DNA of 36,052 nucleotides from a bacterium (GTDB lineage Bacteria; Bacillota; Clostridia; UBA1381). Of this stretch, positions 1,114-29,048 are shown one piece after another. Both the position numbers and the translations under genes were made by a program. The notes beneath the pieces are model-generated. The model saw only the letters and a list, made by a program, of their open reading frames with translations, was not told the DNA's origin and did no database searches. The stretch is taken from positions 1-36,052 of the forward strand of contig JAUNPN010000015.1 of the NCBI GenBank assembly GCA_030536655.1, read 5' to 3'. Every line of letters begins with the position of its first letter. The stretch's first letter is position 1.

Positions 1114-1147
1114 GTAGTATAAAAACATTGCCGGCGATGGGGTGAAA

Positions 1148-1267
1148 GCTTGGAAAAAGATAAGCGGCGCATCTGCCGTCATTCGGGGCTTGAAGTACAG
1201 CGTATAACTGCGCCCCTCATAACGGCAATTTGCTTGCTTCTCTTTTCTTAAACGCATTGGTGAAAGG
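1148..1267 (+). ncRNA. Structured repeat RNA element, copy A (dprA leader)
   Basis: This is the first of three related elements (others at 8531-8652 and 27589-27690). The ends form a long stem, GCTTGG-AAAAAGA (from 1148) with TCTTTTC-TTAAAC (to ~1253). An inner arm pairs TGCCGT with ACGGCA and GGGGC with GCCCC. Strands outside the stems are conserved between copies: ATAAGCG(G/T)CGCAT on the 5' side, T(T/C)GAAGTA(C/T)A in the apical part, and GCAAT(C/T)TG(C/T)TTG on the 3' side. Copies A and B also share AAACG(C/G)ATTGGTGAAAG after the closing stem. Here it lies between the promoter and the dprA ribosome-binding site, so it could act in cis. I do not recognise the family. Confidence 0.65.
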
Positions 1268-1283
1268 AGTTCGGATTATAAAA

Positions 1284-8498: not shown

Positions 8499-8527
8499 AA
8501 AAAATTGCCCAGACCGTTCAAGGGCAA
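8499..8527 (-). terminator. Intrinsic terminator for the regulator gene (minus strand)
   Basis: Read on the minus strand, TTGCCC-N11-GGGCAA is followed by six T residues. It would end transcripts coming from the MocR-type gene, just before they run into the glycosyltransferase gene. Confidence 0.55.
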
Positions 8528-8530
8528 AAA

Positions 8531-8652
8531 GTTTGGGGAAAGATAAGCGTCGCATCTTGCCGCCCTCAGCGACTTGAAGTATAAACATACGTCGGCGTCG
8601 CTTCTGACAGCAATCTGTTTGCTTCTCTTTTCCCAAACGGATTGGTGAAAGC
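8531..8652 (+). ncRNA. Structured repeat RNA element, copy B
   Basis: This is the second copy of the element at 1148-1267. The closing stem GTTTGGGGAAAGA (8531-8543) pairs with TCTTTTCCCAAAC (8626-8638) over 13 positions with a single G-T wobble. Bases differ from copies A and C but pairing is kept. The inner arm pairs AGCGAC with GTCGCT. The conserved strands ATAAGCGTCGCAT, TTGAAGTATA and GCAATCTGTTTG are present, and the AAACGGATTGGTGAAAG tail matches copy A. No gene lies downstream on this strand, since the next gene is convergent. Here the element is either a 3' UTR of the glycosyltransferase transcript or a free RNA ending at 8776-8782. Confidence 0.65.
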
Positions 8653-8715
8653 ATTTATAAGTTTGATTTTACCTGTTTTAGAGCGTCGAAAAACAACATG
8701 AAAGATAAATAATGC

Positions 8716-8745
8716 AGAAAATCCGCTTGTAAAAGCGGATTTTCT
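8716..8745. terminator. Perfect 13-bp hairpin between convergent genes
   Basis: AGAAAATCCGCTT (8716-8728), a GTAA loop and AAGCGGATTTTCT (8733-8745) form a perfect stem. It is not followed by a clean T-run on either strand. It may be a weak bidirectional terminator or an RNA-stabilising hairpin. Confidence 0.4.
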
Positions 8746-8748
8746 GTG

Positions 8749-8782
8749 TTGTTCGCCCTTGAACGTTCTGAACAATTTTTTT
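8749..8782 (+). terminator. Intrinsic terminator after copy B
   Basis: TTGTTC (8749-8754) pairs with GAACAA (8770-8775), followed by seven T residues (8776-8782). It would end transcripts from the topA-glycosyltransferase side or a free copy-B RNA. The loop contains the right terminal inverted repeat. Confidence 0.6.
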
Positions 8783-10555: not shown

Positions 10556-13500
10556 ATGAAAAGTAAACTTTTCAAGAAAACCATTGCGTCAATTTCGGCA
10601 TTGGCAATGGTAGCTTCGACATTTGTCATTCCAATGACTGCAAATGCAGCTGAAACGTATTACACTCTTGATAATGAGAGTGCAACAGATACAACGGGCT
10701 GGGCGTCAGCTAATTTTCCGGATGGTATGTCAATAGCATCAGATTCAAATACTTCGATAAGCAAGTATTTTCTGTACAAGAACTCAACCGGAAGAGGTGC
10801 ACGTACCGCATATTATAATTTGCCGGCTGCAGCAAAAACCGTAGACGAAAATAAGAAAGCAGTACTTGAGTTTGATTTTGTGTTACGTAACGGAGGAACC
10901 AATGGCAATAACCAGATTGCTTTCACCAGTGAGACAGGAACACCCATAGGAAATGGTGATTATAACAAGCAAGACTATGTTTTGATGATTACTCAGCCGA
11001 AGGATAAGAGCGCTCAGTTTGCATTAAATGGAACAGATGTATATTCAGCAAATTATGCAAATGAAACATGGGCACATGCAAAGGCAGTTCTTGATTTTGC
11101 TCAGAAGGATGTTCTTGTAACAATCACGTCGCTTGATGGTTCAACAACATATTATGAAACCAGTAAGGTAATGATGGGAAATGATGCATCAGAGCTTACA
11201 CAAATCTTTATTAATGCGGCACGTGATAATTCATGGGCAGGTATTGATAATGTTGTAGTACGTTCGGTAGAGGACGGCGATATTGTAGGAACATACTATA
11301 AGGTAACATTTGATGTAGATGGTAAGTCAACGGTTAAGTCAGTTAAAGAGGGCGAAAAAGTTGAAGAATTACCGGATTCATCAAAGACAGGATATATCTT
11401 CAAAGGATGGAGCAAGGATGGCAGCGATACTCTCATGACAGGTGAGGATGTATTAGCAACTGCAATTACAGCAGATACAACCTTTACAGCTGTATATGAG
11501 GCTGATACATCATATATTGAGCCGATGGTATCGGCAGAGTTTACATCTTTCCCGGAAAATGGCTTACTTATAGCTGGGGCAGATGAAAATACAGCAGCCT
11601 CAAACCTTATCGGAATCAAGATTAACGGAGAGCTTGGTACAGATCTCTTGGCAAATCCGGATTCAAGAGTAAAAGACCTTGATGTAAAATATGAGCTTAA
11701 GGGCTTCCGTTGGGTAGCTTCAAAGAATGAACCCACAACAGATGTTATAGAGGATGAATACTGTGACAGCTATGGAAAAGTAGTAAAGAATGAGGATAAA
11801 TCAATTGACTTCCAGTTAAAGAGTCATCCGTTTAACTACTATGGTGAGGTTGTTGCAACAGTTACATATAATGGTCAGACATTAAGCATTTCAAAACCGC
11901 TTGCATATCTTGGAAATACTGCAAATCAGGCACAGAATGTAATTCTTCCACGTGGTGGATACATTGCAGACTACAACAGCTATTCACCGGATATGGTAGG
12001 ATATAAGGCTGCTATTTCACCGGACAATAAGACTTCGGTTGACCCTGTAACGGATAACTGGGCTGCATATGGCGGAAATGTTGGCAGAGGAGTGTATCTT
12101 GCAGAGGAAGAAGGAAACAAATTCCTTAAGATTAAAACAACAGGTTCAAACAGCTCGTCATTTGCAGCAAACCAGATCGAGGCTGTTACTGATACACAGG
12201 TTGTATTCAGACAGAAGGTACGTTTCTATAATCCGAACTCATCAATAATATTAAAGAGTGTTAATCCTGTAACATGGACAGCAGGCGAAGCAACATCATT
12301 TAGTGTTAATTTTACAGGCAGTGAATTAAACATTAACAATAATAGGATTACAGATGCTGCAACAGGAATATGGTATGAAATTATTGTTACATCAGACGTA
12401 ACGTCAGGCAAATGCTGTGCAATAGTTAATGATGCAGAAGGCAACAAGCTTGGCGAGAGCGAAATCGTAAGCTTTAGCGATGCAGGCTCTAAGACCCCGA
12501 CATACTATATGTACAGAACACCGGATAACTCAGTCGGCGAACTTGACTTTAAAGATGTAACAATATATAGGGCAGAGATGGATGGAGCTACATTAGCTAC
12601 AACAGCATCGGCGACAACACTTGCAATTCCGGAGGAAGGTGCTGCACCGTCAACTGCAAATCTTACAGTAAGTGCAAAGACAACCGAAGGTTATGAGGCA
12701 ATCGGAGCAGCAACATGGACAGTTGCAAATGATGCAGCAGGTATTACGGTGACACCGTCAGCTGAGGATTCACACATGGCAACAATCAGTGTTGATTCAA
12801 CAGCTTCAGCAGGAACAGCAACAGTAAATGTAACAATAGGCGGAGCAACAAAGCAGATTGATTTTACAATCACAGCTTCAAAGGACAGCATAAAGTTTGC
12901 TGACCCGGTTGTAAACAGCATTTCAATTCCGCTTGATGACAATAACACAGTAGTTTCATATCCGGTAAGCGTAATCGACAAGGATGGAAACGATATTGCA
13001 GGAAAGACAGTTTCACTTGCATTGTATGACCAGAATAATGTAAATCCGGTAACATTAAACGGTATAACGTTAGAGAACGGTGTTCTTACAGTAACAAAGG
13101 ATGCTGTTCCGACAGTTGTAACAATTAGAGCAACATCAACAAATTCAAATAATGAGGAAATTACAAATACAGTTAAAGTGACAATTCACGGATTGGCATT
13201 TGACTTAGGCACAGCTGATGAAGAAGCAGTTGCAAACGGCTATACCCCGGTAACTTCAACAACAGCATACAGCGAAAAGTTGGGTTATGGTATTGAGGGA
13301 GCAGCAACAGCAGGAGGAACGGCTTCGTTAGAAGATGCTGATACTGACTATCTTGAGGGTAACTATACATTCAAGGTAAATGTACCAAACGATAAGATTT
13401 ATAAGGTAACATTAAACTATGAGGGTAATGCTGTATTCGAAAAGATATCAACAGACCTTTCGGGTGTAGTAAGAAACAATGCTGCAATGGGTAAGGTTGA

Positions 13501-15670
13501 GTATTTGGCATTCGTACATGATGGTGTTCTTGACATAGGCTTTGATAAGAAGGTTTCATCAATAGTAATTGAAAAAATCGAAAGAGAAGCAGGTATTAAG
13601 CCGCATGTATACACAGTAGGTGACTCAACAATTGCAAACAACGGTTCATGGGCATATGTTCTCAATCGTGATTTCGCAAACTATTCAGAACTTGGACAGT
13701 ATGTAACATTCACAAATAATGGTCGTGGTGGTAAGAATCTTTCAAGCTACTACACAGGCGGCGAGCTTTGGGATAGAGTAGTAACAAACATTAAGCCGGG
13801 CGACTATGTAATGATAGGCGATATGGGTACAAACGGTATGGGTGCTGATTTTGAGGGCTCATTCAAGTATTATGTGGATGCTTGCTTGGCACTTGGCGCA
13901 AAGGTAATTCTCAACTCATATTCACCGCATGGAGCAGTAGGCGATTATGCTTCAGGCTATAACTCAGCAACTCAGAAATTCAATTCTTACAGACAGGATG
14001 CTTACGATAATATTGTAAGAGCAATGTATGAAGAAAGAAAATCAGAACTTGCAGGATTTATTGATATTGGTAAGAATGCAGATACTGCGTTTAACGCATA
14101 TGTAGATGATTATGCTGCAAACGGCTATGAATCAAGAGATGCTGCTGCACAGGCAATTATCTCATGCTTCGGTGACCATAACCATTACAGCAACGGAACG
14201 ATTGCTGCGCAGCTTATGATTGAGGGTTATAAGGGAACACCGGGTATTGTTTCAGAACTCATAAGAATTGTAAGTAATACAGAGCCGCAGCCGACAGCAC
14301 CGGCAGAAACAGCTCAGCCGACAGCACCTGCGGAAACGACTCAGCCGACAACCCCGGCAGAAACAGCTCAGCCGACAGCACCGGCAACAGATGATCCGAA
14401 CAAGGATACTGTTACTGTATATGCTGAGAATGGTGTTGCAATAACAGCTGAATATACAGAAAACGGTGCATTAAAGGCAATCAAGTCAATTGTTGATGTA
14501 GCAGACGGTCAGAAAGTTGTTACGGCAGCAGAGGGCGAAAGGGTATTTGCATGGGATTCATTATCAGGCATGAAGCCGCTTGCAACAAAGGAAGTATCAG
14601 CTTCAGAAGTGGTAGAGCCGACAACCCCGGCAGAAACAGCTCAGCCGGGCGGAGATGATGAACCGAAAGAAACAGCAGATCCGGCAGCAGAGGCAAAGGT
14701 TATCTGGAAGGCACAGAAGGATACAGCATATGCAGCGGGACAGGATTTAGGAAACGGACTTTCACTCGTATTCGGTACAGAAGATGGTGCAGCTCCGGTG
14801 TATTCTGATTTTACAAATACAGAAGAGGACGGAACTGTAACACCGATTACAAAGATTGTAGGCGGAGTAGAGCTTACAGGATATGTTTCAGCAACAACAG
14901 CAAACGGAAGCTGGTCCGGTACTTCTGTTGACCCGTCAAAGACAACGGTAATTAAGTACACTGCTGCGGAAGACGGTGTATTAACTGTATATCTTGATAA
15001 TGTTGGTACAGATAAGAAAATCTGTGTAGGACAGGAAGGCATGAAGAAGGGAGAAATTGAAGCAGCAGCAACTTACGGTACGGGAAATGCAATGGCATTC
15101 CCTGTAAACGTAAAAGCCGGAGAGTCATATTACGTATATGTAGCAGGTTCAAAGGGTCGTTTCTGTGGCGCTGCCTTTGAGGCGGGCGAGTTGCCGGTTG
15201 TTCCGGATCAGACTGATCCTCCGGCGTCAGAAATACCGGCGCCGCAGGACGGCGAGTGGGTTATGTCAGCAGCTTATAACTCTTGCCCGGCAGGAACAGA
15301 ACTGATGAAGGGACTTACCACTTTATTTGCCGATACAAAGAATAACAAAAAGTATCTTTCATCAGATGATAACGGAACCTTTAGTGATGGCGCTGCAACG
15401 GGAACAGCTTTAAAGTATGTTGCATGGACTGACGGTACATTAACAGTATCATTCACAGGTCTTGGTACTCCGGGTTCAACAGGACCTAAGACAATGTATA
15501 TTGTTCCGGAAGGCGGAAAGCAGACAGAGCCGCTTGCTTCAGTACCAAATGAGAGTACAGAGAAAATGGATGGAAGTATTTCTGCAGACGTAACAGCAGG
15601 TACAACCTACTATATTTACGGAGCGGGAACGAAGGCGTGCTTCAGTGGTGCATCATTTGTTCAGAAATAA
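10556..15670 (+). CDS. Large secreted multidomain protein with SGNH (rhamnogalacturonan acetylesterase-like) domain
   Basis: The 1704-residue product has a signal peptide cut near residue 31 (PMTANA). Beta-rich N-terminal domains follow. An InlB-type Listeria-Bacteroides repeat lies at about 247-317 (VTFDVDG...GYIFKGWS). Two Ig-like domains lie near 680-880, and a carbohydrate-binding-like module (FDLGTADEEAVANGYTPV) at about 883-1010. The SGNH esterase domain spans about 1015-1235: nucleophile Ser1024 in VGDSTIAN, block II NNGRGGKN (1054-1061), block III GDMGTNG with Asn1093, and block V DHNH (1207-1210). Proline/threonine linkers separate two related C-terminal beta modules (about 1382-1545 and 1566-1704). 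Related domains occur in pectin-side-chain deacetylases (CE12-like) of gut Clostridia. Block III lacks the usual GHND. No LPXTG, SLH or dockerin anchor is visible. The gene is monocistronic, and the substrate is inferred. Confidence 0.85.
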   Translation: MKSKLFKKTIASISALAMVASTFVIPMTANAAETYYTLDNESATDTTGWASANFPDGMSIASDSNTSISKYFLYKNSTGRGARTAYYNLPAAAKTVDENKKAVLEFDFVLRNGGTNGNNQIAFTSETGTPIGNGDYNKQDYVLMITQPKDKSAQFALNGTDVYSANYANETWAHAKAVLDFAQKDVLVTITSLDGSTTYYETSKVMMGNDASELTQIFINAARDNSWAGIDNVVVRSVEDGDIVGTYYKVTFDVDGKSTVKSVKEGEKVEELPDSSKTGYIFKGWSKDGSDTLMTGEDVLATAITADTTFTAVYEADTSYIEPMVSAEFTSFPENGLLIAGADENTAASNLIGIKINGELGTDLLANPDSRVKDLDVKYELKGFRWVASKNEPTTDVIEDEYCDSYGKVVKNEDKSIDFQLKSHPFNYYGEVVATVTYNGQTLSISKPLAYLGNTANQAQNVILPRGGYIADYNSYSPDMVGYKAAISPDNKTSVDPVTDNWAAYGGNVGRGVYLAEEEGNKFLKIKTTGSNSSSFAANQIEAVTDTQVVFRQKVRFYNPNSSIILKSVNPVTWTAGEATSFSVNFTGSELNINNNRITDAATGIWYEIIVTSDVTSGKCCAIVNDAEGNKLGESEIVSFSDAGSKTPTYYMYRTPDNSVGELDFKDVTIYRAEMDGATLATTASATTLAIPEEGAAPSTANLTVSAKTTEGYEAIGAATWTVANDAAGITVTPSAEDSHMATISVDSTASAGTATVNVTIGGATKQIDFTITASKDSIKFADPVVNSISIPLDDNNTVVSYPVSVIDKDGNDIAGKTVSLALYDQNNVNPVTLNGITLENGVLTVTKDAVPTVVTIRATSTNSNNEEITNTVKVTIHGLAFDLGTADEEAVANGYTPVTSTTAYSEKLGYGIEGAATAGGTASLEDADTDYLEGNYTFKVNVPNDKIYKVTLNYEGNAVFEKISTDLSGVVRNNAAMGKVEYLAFVHDGVLDIGFDKKVSSIVIEKIEREAGIKPHVYTVGDSTIANNGSWAYVLNRDFANYSELGQYVTFTNNGRGGKNLSSYYTGGELWDRVVTNIKPGDYVMIGDMGTNGMGADFEGSFKYYVDACLALGAKVILNSYSPHGAVGDYASGYNSATQKFNSYRQDAYDNIVRAMYEERKSELAGFIDIGKNADTAFNAYVDDYAANGYESRDAAAQAIISCFGDHNHYSNGTIAAQLMIEGYKGTPGIVSELIRIVSNTEPQPTAPAETAQPTAPAETTQPTTPAETAQPTAPATDDPNKDTVTVYAENGVAITAEYTENGALKAIKSIVDVADGQKVVTAAEGERVFAWDSLSGMKPLATKEVSASEVVEPTTPAETAQPGGDDEPKETADPAAEAKVIWKAQKDTAYAAGQDLGNGLSLVFGTEDGAAPVYSDFTNTEEDGTVTPITKIVGGVELTGYVSATTANGSWSGTSVDPSKTTVIKYTAAEDGVLTVYLDNVGTDKKICVGQEGMKKGEIEAAATYGTGNAMAFPVNVKAGESYYVYVAGSKGRFCGAAFEAGELPVVPDQTDPPASEIPAPQDGEWVMSAAYNSCPAGTELMKGLTTLFADTKNNKKYLSSDDNGTFSDGAATGTALKYVAWTDGTLTVSFTGLGTPGSTGPKTMYIVPEGGKQTEPLASVPNESTEKMDGSISADVTAGTTYYIYGAGTKACFSGASFVQK
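14288..14386 (+). repeat. 27-bp in-frame tandem repeats encoding a Pro/Thr linker
   Basis: Units start at 14288, 14315, 14342 and 14369 (the last partial) and encode QPTAPAETA-type nonapeptides. A further related unit occurs near 14615-14647. They encode flexible, probably extracellular linkers between the esterase domain and the C-terminal modules. Such repeats can change in copy number by slippage. Confidence 0.85.
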
Positions 15671-26265: not shown

Positions 26266-27588
26266 ATGAGGAAAGCCGATACAACAATTGAATATGTAGA
26301 GCCATTTTCGCCGGCTGCGCAGGCAGGTCTTCTTGCGGGTGATAATATACTTAAAATCAATGGCTGCGATTTTCATGATATTCTTGAATACCGCTATCTC
26401 ACAGCGGAATATGAGGTAGAAATGGAAATCAGAAAAATAAACGGTGAGGTTGAAAAGGTTGTTATAACAAACGATTATGAGGATTTGGGAATTGAATTCA
26501 AGGAGGGACTTATTGACGAGGCACAGTCCTGTCATAATAAGTGTATCTTCTGTTTTATTGACCAGCTTCCAAAAGGAATGCGTGAAACCGTCTATTTTAA
26601 AGATGATGATACCCGCCTGTCCTTTTTGCAGGGGAATTATGTCACATTGACAAATATGTCCGATGAGGAGATTGACAGATTAATTAAGATGCGTGTTTCT
26701 CCTATTAATGTTAGTGTACACGCAACAGATCCCGAACTGCGCTGCAAAATGCTTAATAACCGTTTTGCCGGAAAATGCTATAGTATATTGAAGAAATTTT
26801 CTGAAAACGGTATAATGATGAATTGCCAAATAGTACTCTGCCCCGGAATTAATGACGGAAAACAGCTTGACCGTACCATTAAAGATCTGGAGGCACTGTA
26901 TCCGTATGTAAACAGCGTTTCGGCTGTACCTGTGGGACTGACACGCTACAGAGAGGGGCTGTACAAGCTTAAGCCGTATACAAAGGAAACGGCTGCGCAG
27001 GTTATAGAGCAGGTAAGCGAGCATCAGAAAAGACTGATAAAGAAAATAGGCACCCGTCTTATATACCTTTCGGATGAGTTCTATATTAAAGCCGGACTGC
27101 CGCTGCCGGAGCCGGAAAGCTATGAGGGTTTTCCTCAGCTCGAAAACGGCGTCGGACTGGTTGCCAGCCTTAAAGAGGAATTTGACGAGGCAATAAAGCT
27201 TGTAAAGAGAAAGGAATATTCAAGAAAATCTGTCATTATGGCAACAGGAGAAATTGTCGGAGATTTTATATCTGAGCTTGGAGCTATGGTGCAGGACGCG
27301 TCCGGTATAGAGGTCAGGGTATATCCGATAAAAAACAATTTTTTCGGAGGCGAGGTAAATGTTTCGGGGCTGGTAACCGGCGGAGATATTATAGAGCAGC
27401 TCAAGAATGTTCCGAAGGCAGACGCGCTTCTGATACCGCAGACAATGCTTCGGGATGATGATGAAATATTCCTTGATGACACAACCGTTGCTCAGGTTGA
27501 GGATGCATTGGGTATGCCGTTGATTCCGGTATTGAATGACGGATATGAATTTATAGAAAAAATAATAGGCGAAGAGCTTGAATTTTAA
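26266..27588 (+). CDS. PDZ / radical SAM / DUF512 protein
   Basis: The 440-residue protein has a short N-terminal PDZ-like domain (about 5-60; FSPAAQAGLLAGDNILKING). A radical-SAM type cluster motif follows, CxxxCxxC at Cys89, Cys93 and Cys96 (SCHNKCIFCFIDQLP). The C-terminal DUF512 region contains PVGLTRYREGLYKLKPY and VSGLVTGGDIIEQLKN. This family is common in Clostridia and is often next to der, as here, but its reaction has not been established as far as I know. The ATG at 26266 follows AGAAGGAG; the in-frame ATG at 26239 would place this site inside the gene. The structured RNA copy C starts one nt after its stop. Confidence 0.9.
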   Translation: MRKADTTIEYVEPFSPAAQAGLLAGDNILKINGCDFHDILEYRYLTAEYEVEMEIRKINGEVEKVVITNDYEDLGIEFKEGLIDEAQSCHNKCIFCFIDQLPKGMRETVYFKDDDTRLSFLQGNYVTLTNMSDEEIDRLIKMRVSPINVSVHATDPELRCKMLNNRFAGKCYSILKKFSENGIMMNCQIVLCPGINDGKQLDRTIKDLEALYPYVNSVSAVPVGLTRYREGLYKLKPYTKETAAQVIEQVSEHQKRLIKKIGTRLIYLSDEFYIKAGLPLPEPESYEGFPQLENGVGLVASLKEEFDEAIKLVKRKEYSRKSVIMATGEIVGDFISELGAMVQDASGIEVRVYPIKNNFFGGEVNVSGLVTGGDIIEQLKNVPKADALLIPQTMLRDDDEIFLDDTTVAQVEDALGMPLIPVLNDGYEFIEKIIGEELEF

Positions 27589-27690
27589 CACGAAAAATAA
27601 GCGGCGCATACCGCTCTATTTAGGAACTCGAAGTATAAGCATACGGCTTCGTTTCTTAAAAGGGCAATCTGCTTGTTTATTTTTCGCGTG
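27589..27690 (+). ncRNA. Structured repeat RNA element, copy C (der leader)
   Basis: This is the third copy. The closing stem CACGAAAAATAA (27589-27600) pairs with TTATTTTTCGCGTG (27677-27690), with entirely different base pairs from copy B but the same position. The inner arm pairs TTTAGGAAC with GTTTCTTAAA and GCTC with GGGC. The conserved strands ATAAGCGGCGCAT, TCGAAGTATAAGCATAC and GGCAATCTGCTTG are present. It starts one nt after the stop codon of the DUF512 gene and ends 35 nt before the der ATG. No separate promoter is obvious, so it is probably part of a polycistronic transcript. Confidence 0.65.
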
Positions 27691-27725
27691 AATAAGCCGT
27701 TTTAGTGCGGCAGATTGGAGGAAGA

Positions 27726-29048
27726 ATGAAACCGACAGTAGCAATAGTAGGAAGACCGAATGTGGGAAAATCCACATTATTTAATAAAATTACAGGACAG
27801 CGCATAAGCATAGTAGAGGATACACCGGGTGTAACACGTGACAGAATTTATGCGGACGCGTCATGGCTGGATAAGCATTTTACGTTAATAGATACGGGTG
27901 GTATTGAGCCGGCTGCAAAGGATGAAATCTTAAGTCAGATGCGCCGTCAGGCTCAGCTTGCAATTGAAATGGCGGATGTTGTAATACTTATGACAAATGT
28001 CCGTGACGGTGTTACCGCAAATGACCAGGATGTGGCAAATATGCTGTTAAAGGCTAACAAAAAGATAGTTCTTGCGGTAAATAAGGTTGATAATGTGGGT
28101 GACCCTCCGTTTGAATTTTATGAGTTTTACAATTTGGGCTTAGGCGACCCGATAGCAATCTCGTCAACACATGGTTTGGGCGTCGGTGATTTATTGGACG
28201 AAGTAACTCACAAATTCCCGGAGGAGTCAGATACCTCCGAGGAGGATGACGAAATCAAGGTTGCTGTAATCGGAAAGCCTAATGCGGGAAAATCCTCGCT
28301 TATTAATAAGATTCTCGGTGAAGAACGCGTTATTGTTTCGAATGTAGCCGGAACAACAAGAGATGCTATCGACTCGCATTACGAAAAGGACGGGGAGCGT
28401 TTCCTTTTCATAGATACTGCCGGAATGAGAAAGCGCGGCAGAATTGATGAAAATATAGAGCATTACAGCGTTGTACGTTCATTGGCTGCGGTTGACCGTT
28501 CGGATGTTTGTGTAATTATGATTGACGCGTCAGAGGGTATTACGGAGCAGGATACAAAGATTGCCGGTTATGCACATGAGCAGGGCAGAGCTTGTATTAT
28601 AGCTGTAAATAAATGGGATTTGGTTGTCAAGGATACAAAGACAATGAAGAATTTCACTGACAGAGTGCGTGAGGAATTTGCCTTTATGTCATATGCTGAG
28701 ATTGTATTTATCAGCGCAAAGACCGGCTCAAGAGTTAATAAGCTTATGGAAATGATAAAATCCGTAAATGAGCAGCATAAGAGAAGAATTACAACAGGTA
28801 TGCTCAACGATGTAATAAATGAGGCAACCGCAAAACAGCAGCCTCCGTCGGACAAGGGAAGAAGATTGCGTATTTACTATGCAACCCAGGCATCGACAGC
28901 ACCTCCGACATTTATAATCTTCTGCAATAACAAGGAGATATTCCATTACTCATATCTTAGATTTATAGAAAATCAGATAAGAGATAATTTTGGCTTTAAG
29001 GGTACGCCTATTAATTTCATTATAAGAGAAAAGGGCGAGAAAAAATAA
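27726..29048 (+). CDS. der: Ribosome-assembly GTPase Der (EngA)
   Basis: Der is an essential GTPase with two G domains in tandem that acts in maturation of the 50S ribosomal subunit. The first G domain shows GRPNVGKST, DTGG and NKVD. The second shows GKPNAGKSS, DTAG and NKWD. The C-terminal KH-like domain follows (LRIYYATQASTAPPTFIIF). The length of 440 residues is normal. I start at the ATG at 27726, with GGAGG at 27717-27721; the in-frame GTG at 27705 has no ribosome-binding site. It leads a der-plsY-gpsA group found in many Firmicutes. Confidence 0.97.
   Translation: MKPTVAIVGRPNVGKSTLFNKITGQRISIVEDTPGVTRDRIYADASWLDKHFTLIDTGGIEPAAKDEILSQMRRQAQLAIEMADVVILMTNVRDGVTANDQDVANMLLKANKKIVLAVNKVDNVGDPPFEFYEFYNLGLGDPIAISSTHGLGVGDLLDEVTHKFPEESDTSEEDDEIKVAVIGKPNAGKSSLINKILGEERVIVSNVAGTTRDAIDSHYEKDGERFLFIDTAGMRKRGRIDENIEHYSVVRSLAAVDRSDVCVIMIDASEGITEQDTKIAGYAHEQGRACIIAVNKWDLVVKDTKTMKNFTDRVREEFAFMSYAEIVFISAKTGSRVNKLMEMIKSVNEQHKRRITTGMLNDVINEATAKQQPPSDKGRRLRIYYATQASTAPPTFIIFCNNKEIFHYSYLRFIENQIRDNFGFKGTPINFIIREKGEKK

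Follow-up and report, generated by a model that had tools for sequence, protein, structure and literature searches.

The window analysed here, the whole 36,052-nucleotide stretch of contig JAUNPN010000015.1 (assembly GCA_030536655.1) from a gut bacterium of the Clostridia (UBA1381), contains three copies of a folded repeat of ∼110 bp. Copy 1 has its hairpin (P1-core-P2-P3-apical-P1′) at 1146..1254 on the plus strand and belongs to a GTTTGG-type subfamily. A displaced host Shine-Dalgarno of dprA, GGGGTGA, lies directly 5′ of it at 1139..1145 (+). A tail at 1255..1281 (+) follows the hairpin, carries the element's own Shine-Dalgarno GAAAGGAG (1262-1269) and ends in TATAA, 2 nt before the dprA ATG at 1284. 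The fold is best supported on the minus strand of the same segment, 1146..1254 (-), where it displays tandem GA internal loops.

Copy 2, also of the GTTTGG subfamily, has its hairpin at 8529..8639 (+) and a tail (GATTGGTGAAAGCATTTATAAGTTT) at 8640..8664 (+). No gene start follows this tail and the downstream gene is converging. A 30-nt inverted repeat with 87% complementary arms (8499-8528 and 8752-8781) brackets copy 2 together with a strong terminator-like hairpin at 8708-8753; this is possibly an older repeat or a terminator split by the insertion. Copy 3, at 27589..27691 (+), represents a divergent ACG-type subfamily. It abuts the TAA stop codon (27586..27588, +) of an upstream DUF512/radical-SAM gene, and its tail at 27692..27725 (+) consists of a small GCCG..GGC hairpin (27696-27711) and a Shine-Dalgarno, GGAGGA (27717-27722), before the der ATG at 27726. 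Elsewhere in the window, at 10556-15670, a 1704-aa open reading frame displays a Listeria-Bacteroides repeat domain and is likely a surface protein.

An initial annotation, made from sequence alone, had described three elements (1148-1267, 8531-8652 and 27589-27690) that share unpaired motifs and have closing and inner stems that differ in sequence but still pair. This observation is confirmed. The motif ATAAGCG(G/T)CGCAT is found at 1160, 8543 and 27597, and both the closing and inner stems vary between copies with pairing maintained. Minimum free energy z-scores against dinucleotide shuffles are -2.7, -6.4 and -5.7 for copies 1, 2 and 3, and scores with a covariance model (R1) are 116, 129.5 and 90.9 bits. 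Three corrections are needed: part of the motifs described as unpaired is paired, the element continues past P1 into a tail that ends at the start codon, and the better-supported folding strand is the minus strand.

A match to an Rfam family, or a lack of further copies and of significant covariation, had been put forward as outcomes that would overturn the proposal of a functional RNA family, and neither was obtained. No Rfam family reaches its curated threshold, and there is no match even at E<=5 for copy 1 or at E<=1 for six divergent loci. The host genome (3.49 Mb, 266 contigs) has 122 hits to the 13-base motif with up to one mismatch, compared with 10 for the reversed control. R1 finds roughly 100 full or truncated copies, and many contigs end inside copies. 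Some copies are in exact 111-bp tandem arrays. There are also about twenty mini forms of 42 bp (P1 plus AAGC-ACC-GCTT), usually directly after a full copy, for example at 1623-1664 of L030, 1623-1664 of L024 and 1348-1389 of L021 among the host contigs.

Copies are found with R1 in most relatives of the same family. Copy number differs within the family: G006, G028, G067 and G011 are, like the host, high-copy genomes, whereas G001, G004, G016, G017 and G025 are zero-copy genomes. With a second model, R2, built from 69 diverse copies, 61 of 95 genomes of the order have matches, and apart from one borderline hit (E 6e-5) all are in the host's own family. In a class-wide sample, 33 of 391 genomes match, including patchy strong hits in other clostridial families. 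Named records are uncultured gut Clostridia, including Candidatus Ornithomonoglobus and Candidatus Avimonoglobus. A phage-borne element is not indicated, as the exact pattern has 0 matches in viral contigs.

In an alignment of 88 diverse copies, 7 of 38 consensus pairs covary at family-wise E<=0.05 against 400 alignments simulated along the phylogenetic tree. These pairs are spread over P1, P2, P3 and the apical stem, and only one pair outside the structure reaches the same level. Covariation and copy number reject a chance or decayed repeat. In some variants the core AAGC/GCUU helix is replaced by GCUC/GAGC. Sequestration of the Shine-Dalgarno by a conserved anti-Shine-Dalgarno in P1 was considered but rejected by inspection, since the GCUC/GAGC variants lose the CUUCU segment.

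The strand preference differs from that assumed in the initial annotation. In the variable helices, A·C on the plus strand, which is G·U on the minus strand, outnumbers G·U by 58 to 10 sequences, and by 22 to 3 after clustering at 75% identity (p=1.6e-4). The minus strand folds better in 83 of 88 copies, with a mean of -45.8 versus -37.3 kcal/mol. Composition explains about 2.4 of the 8.6 kcal/mol difference. DNA energy parameters show the same sign, so RNA and single-stranded DNA are not separated. The consensus fold is -72.8 on the minus and -55.4 on the plus strand. Both UC/UC loops of the plus strand become GA/GA on the minus strand, a stable motif. Conserved plus-strand G·U pairs in the core point the other way, but the variable helices are given more weight because conserved positions are uninformative.

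The elements are found mostly at one functional address. Where both flanking genes point the same way, the element is co-directional in 114 cases and opposed in 3 (p=3e-30), and an upstream stop codon lies within 30 nt in 92 co-directional cases versus 4. The 5′ end often abuts or overlaps this stop codon. A host Shine-Dalgarno lies immediately 5′ in 47 of 68 sites versus 23% of control windows (p=1e-15), and the tail carries its own Shine-Dalgarno in 96-100%. In the host-type subfamily the start codon follows the tail by exactly 2 nt in 24 of 31 cases. Removal of the element in silico restores a Shine-Dalgarno at normal spacing in 80% versus 19% of controls. These genomes are draft MAGs and the gene calls are simple open reading frame calls. 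Most copies in the distant families keep the same position after the upstream stop codon.

Comparison of empty and filled sites suggests mobility. At der, the host alone among the relatives shown has the element, and same-family relatives have the plain stop-Shine-Dalgarno-start junction. At dprA most relatives have the plain leader. In the host the element sits between GGGGTGA and the ATG, whereas genome G006, of another genus, has a copy (locus L284, G006 C3) immediately 5′ of its dprA ATG with a different upstream gene; the same gene start thus appears to have been hit twice independently. Polymorphic insertions between strains of one species were not available for comparison. Low-copy genomes carry copies at unrelated, non-orthologous loci, and a conserved housekeeping master copy was rejected on this ground. 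The downstream genes share no function and include those for a holin, isocitrate/isopropylmalate dehydrogenase, SHMT, UvrC, GerAC, GH28, DprA and Der.

The means of mobilisation was not found. Y1 transposase has 0 matches in the 98% complete host assembly, which argues against a REP/RAYT-type system. Reverse transcriptase (RVT_1) is present once in the host but is absent from G011, a genome with ∼36 copies, and from others with many copies. A reverse transcriptase as general mobiliser is not supported, although with draft genomes these absences leave the matter of a retroelement undecided. A general target-site duplication that copies the Shine-Dalgarno was favoured at first but weakened as more sites were added: the excess is weak (p=0.002-0.006), most sites are not identical, and the data do not settle whether a duplication of fixed length exists.

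These findings are best explained by a new family of non-autonomous, dispersed mobile elements that occupies ribosome-binding sites without destroying them, a reading given a probability of roughly 0.7. Each element is a ∼111-bp module whose minus strand folds into one long hairpin with a conserved core, in which helices are joined by two GA/GA loops of the tandem sheared G-A type, with a conserved apical hairpin and a following tail of ∼27-35 bp that carries a Shine-Dalgarno. The analysis itself demonstrates the many copies, the empty sites in relatives, the co-directional position between host Shine-Dalgarno and start codon, the replacement Shine-Dalgarno of the tail and the structure conserved by covariation. 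It is an inference, on the other hand, that an unidentified enzyme acting in trans recognises the folded minus strand, as RNA or as single-stranded DNA, and inserts copies at ribosome-binding sites; that the carried Shine-Dalgarno keeps the downstream gene translated, so that insertions are tolerated and the family can reach ∼100 copies; and that tandem 111-bp arrays and 42-bp mini forms arise later by recombination or slippage. The fixed position could partly reflect selection rather than targeting. A stronger proposal is not excluded but is tentative: a new class of bacterial mobile element that uses ribosome-binding sites as its insertion site in fixed orientation, replaces the Shine-Dalgarno it displaces, and is mobilised through a folded minus-strand nucleic acid by an enzyme not yet known. 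The interpretation in the initial annotation is therefore partly supported. It was right about a family unknown to Rfam, real covariation and many more copies, but "functional RNA rather than a decayed repeat" is not supported as stated, in that the element is a dispersed, apparently mobile repeat with no common regulon and a selected fold that appears to be on the opposite strand; that some copies act as RNA is not excluded.

Other readings are less likely. An ordinary TIR-type MITE, with P1 as the terminal inverted repeat, movement by a DDE transposase and placement at gene starts as survivor bias, would agree with the palindromic ends, small size, high copy number, lack of coding capacity and weak signs of flanking duplications. 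However, the element extends ∼27-35 bp beyond the 3′ arm to the start codon, so the inverted repeats are not exactly at both ends, and P1 varies freely in sequence while the internal core is conserved, the reverse of transposase-bound termini. A matching autonomous insertion sequence was not tested for. Also unlikely is a cis-acting intercistronic regulatory RNA, of riboswitch or protein-binding type, that controls translation or stability of the downstream gene. The strict co-direction with the mRNA, the proximity to the start codon with a Shine-Dalgarno, and the conserved core and covariation are in keeping with it, but there is no common downstream function, the element is absent at orthologous der and dprA sites in most relatives, the fold is favoured on the non-mRNA strand, and near-identical copies and tandem arrays are present.

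Two readings draw on the minus-strand fold. A bacterial SINE-like retroelement, whose minus-strand RNA is reverse-transcribed into target DNA at Shine-Dalgarno sequences, might also account for the fixed orientation, the Shine-Dalgarno-proximal target and the variable short flanking repeats at some sites. Against it stand the absence of reverse transcriptase from G011 and others with many copies, although these are draft genomes, and the lack of general flanking duplications, and the strand preference with DNA parameters means that RNA is not proven; an RNA intermediate was not assayed. A minus-strand small RNA, antisense to the leader, that controls the downstream gene is least likely, as a minus-strand promoter would have to lie partly in host coding sequence and none was shown, and the sites are variable with no common targets.

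Among characterised systems, BOX elements of Streptococcus pneumoniae (PMC3049150) are likewise small interspersed, MITE-like repeats with stable folds, tandem internal modules, many copies and effects on neighbouring genes. BOX is modular, boxA-boxB(n)-boxC, whereas the present element is a single 111-nt fold with a conserved core, a tail with a Shine-Dalgarno and a position between host Shine-Dalgarno and start codon, and is found across Clostridia; this comparison rests on the published description, without alignment to BOX sequences. Bacterial MITEs, including ERIC and Correia elements (PMC10969869), are also short, non-coding, palindromic, multi-copy and mostly intergenic. Here the 3′ arm is not terminal, signs of a target duplication are weak and not consistent, the conserved part is the internal core and gene orientation is strict; as it fails the terminal-repeat criterion, the element is not classed as a MITE. 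REP/BIME elements, moved by RAYT (Y1 HUH) transposases, are often intra-operonic, located after stop codons and folded as a single strand, but the element described here is ∼111 bp with a long core, and Y1 transposase is lacking in the host genome. Integron attC sites lie between a stop codon and the next start, conserve structure more than sequence and fold on one strand. The present copies flank ordinary operon genes, no cassette arrays were seen, an internal core is conserved, and AAC/GTT ends are not kept in the GTTTGG subfamily. In the literature, the four core strings searched appear only in one unrelated cancer paper, and other searches gave only analogues.

Small structured repeats are usually thought to land in intergenic space more or less at random and to survive where harmless. 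The present family is found mostly in the gap between Shine-Dalgarno and start codon and supplies what it displaces, which suggests either a mobile element with ribosome-binding-site specificity or an extreme case of selection. It offers ∼100 natural experiments per genome on how translation starts tolerate insertions. Unannotated, it also fragments assemblies of gut Clostridia.

Two copies, L080 and L211, overlap long opposite-strand open reading frames (349 and 495 aa) in the simple gene calls, and these may be rare insertions inside genes or false open reading frames. In some copies (L083, L086, L149, L162, L196, L325, L352-L363) a second apical module (GGGGCGGUAC..GUACAGCACC) replaces the UUGAAGUA type, so the apical part of the element appears modular.
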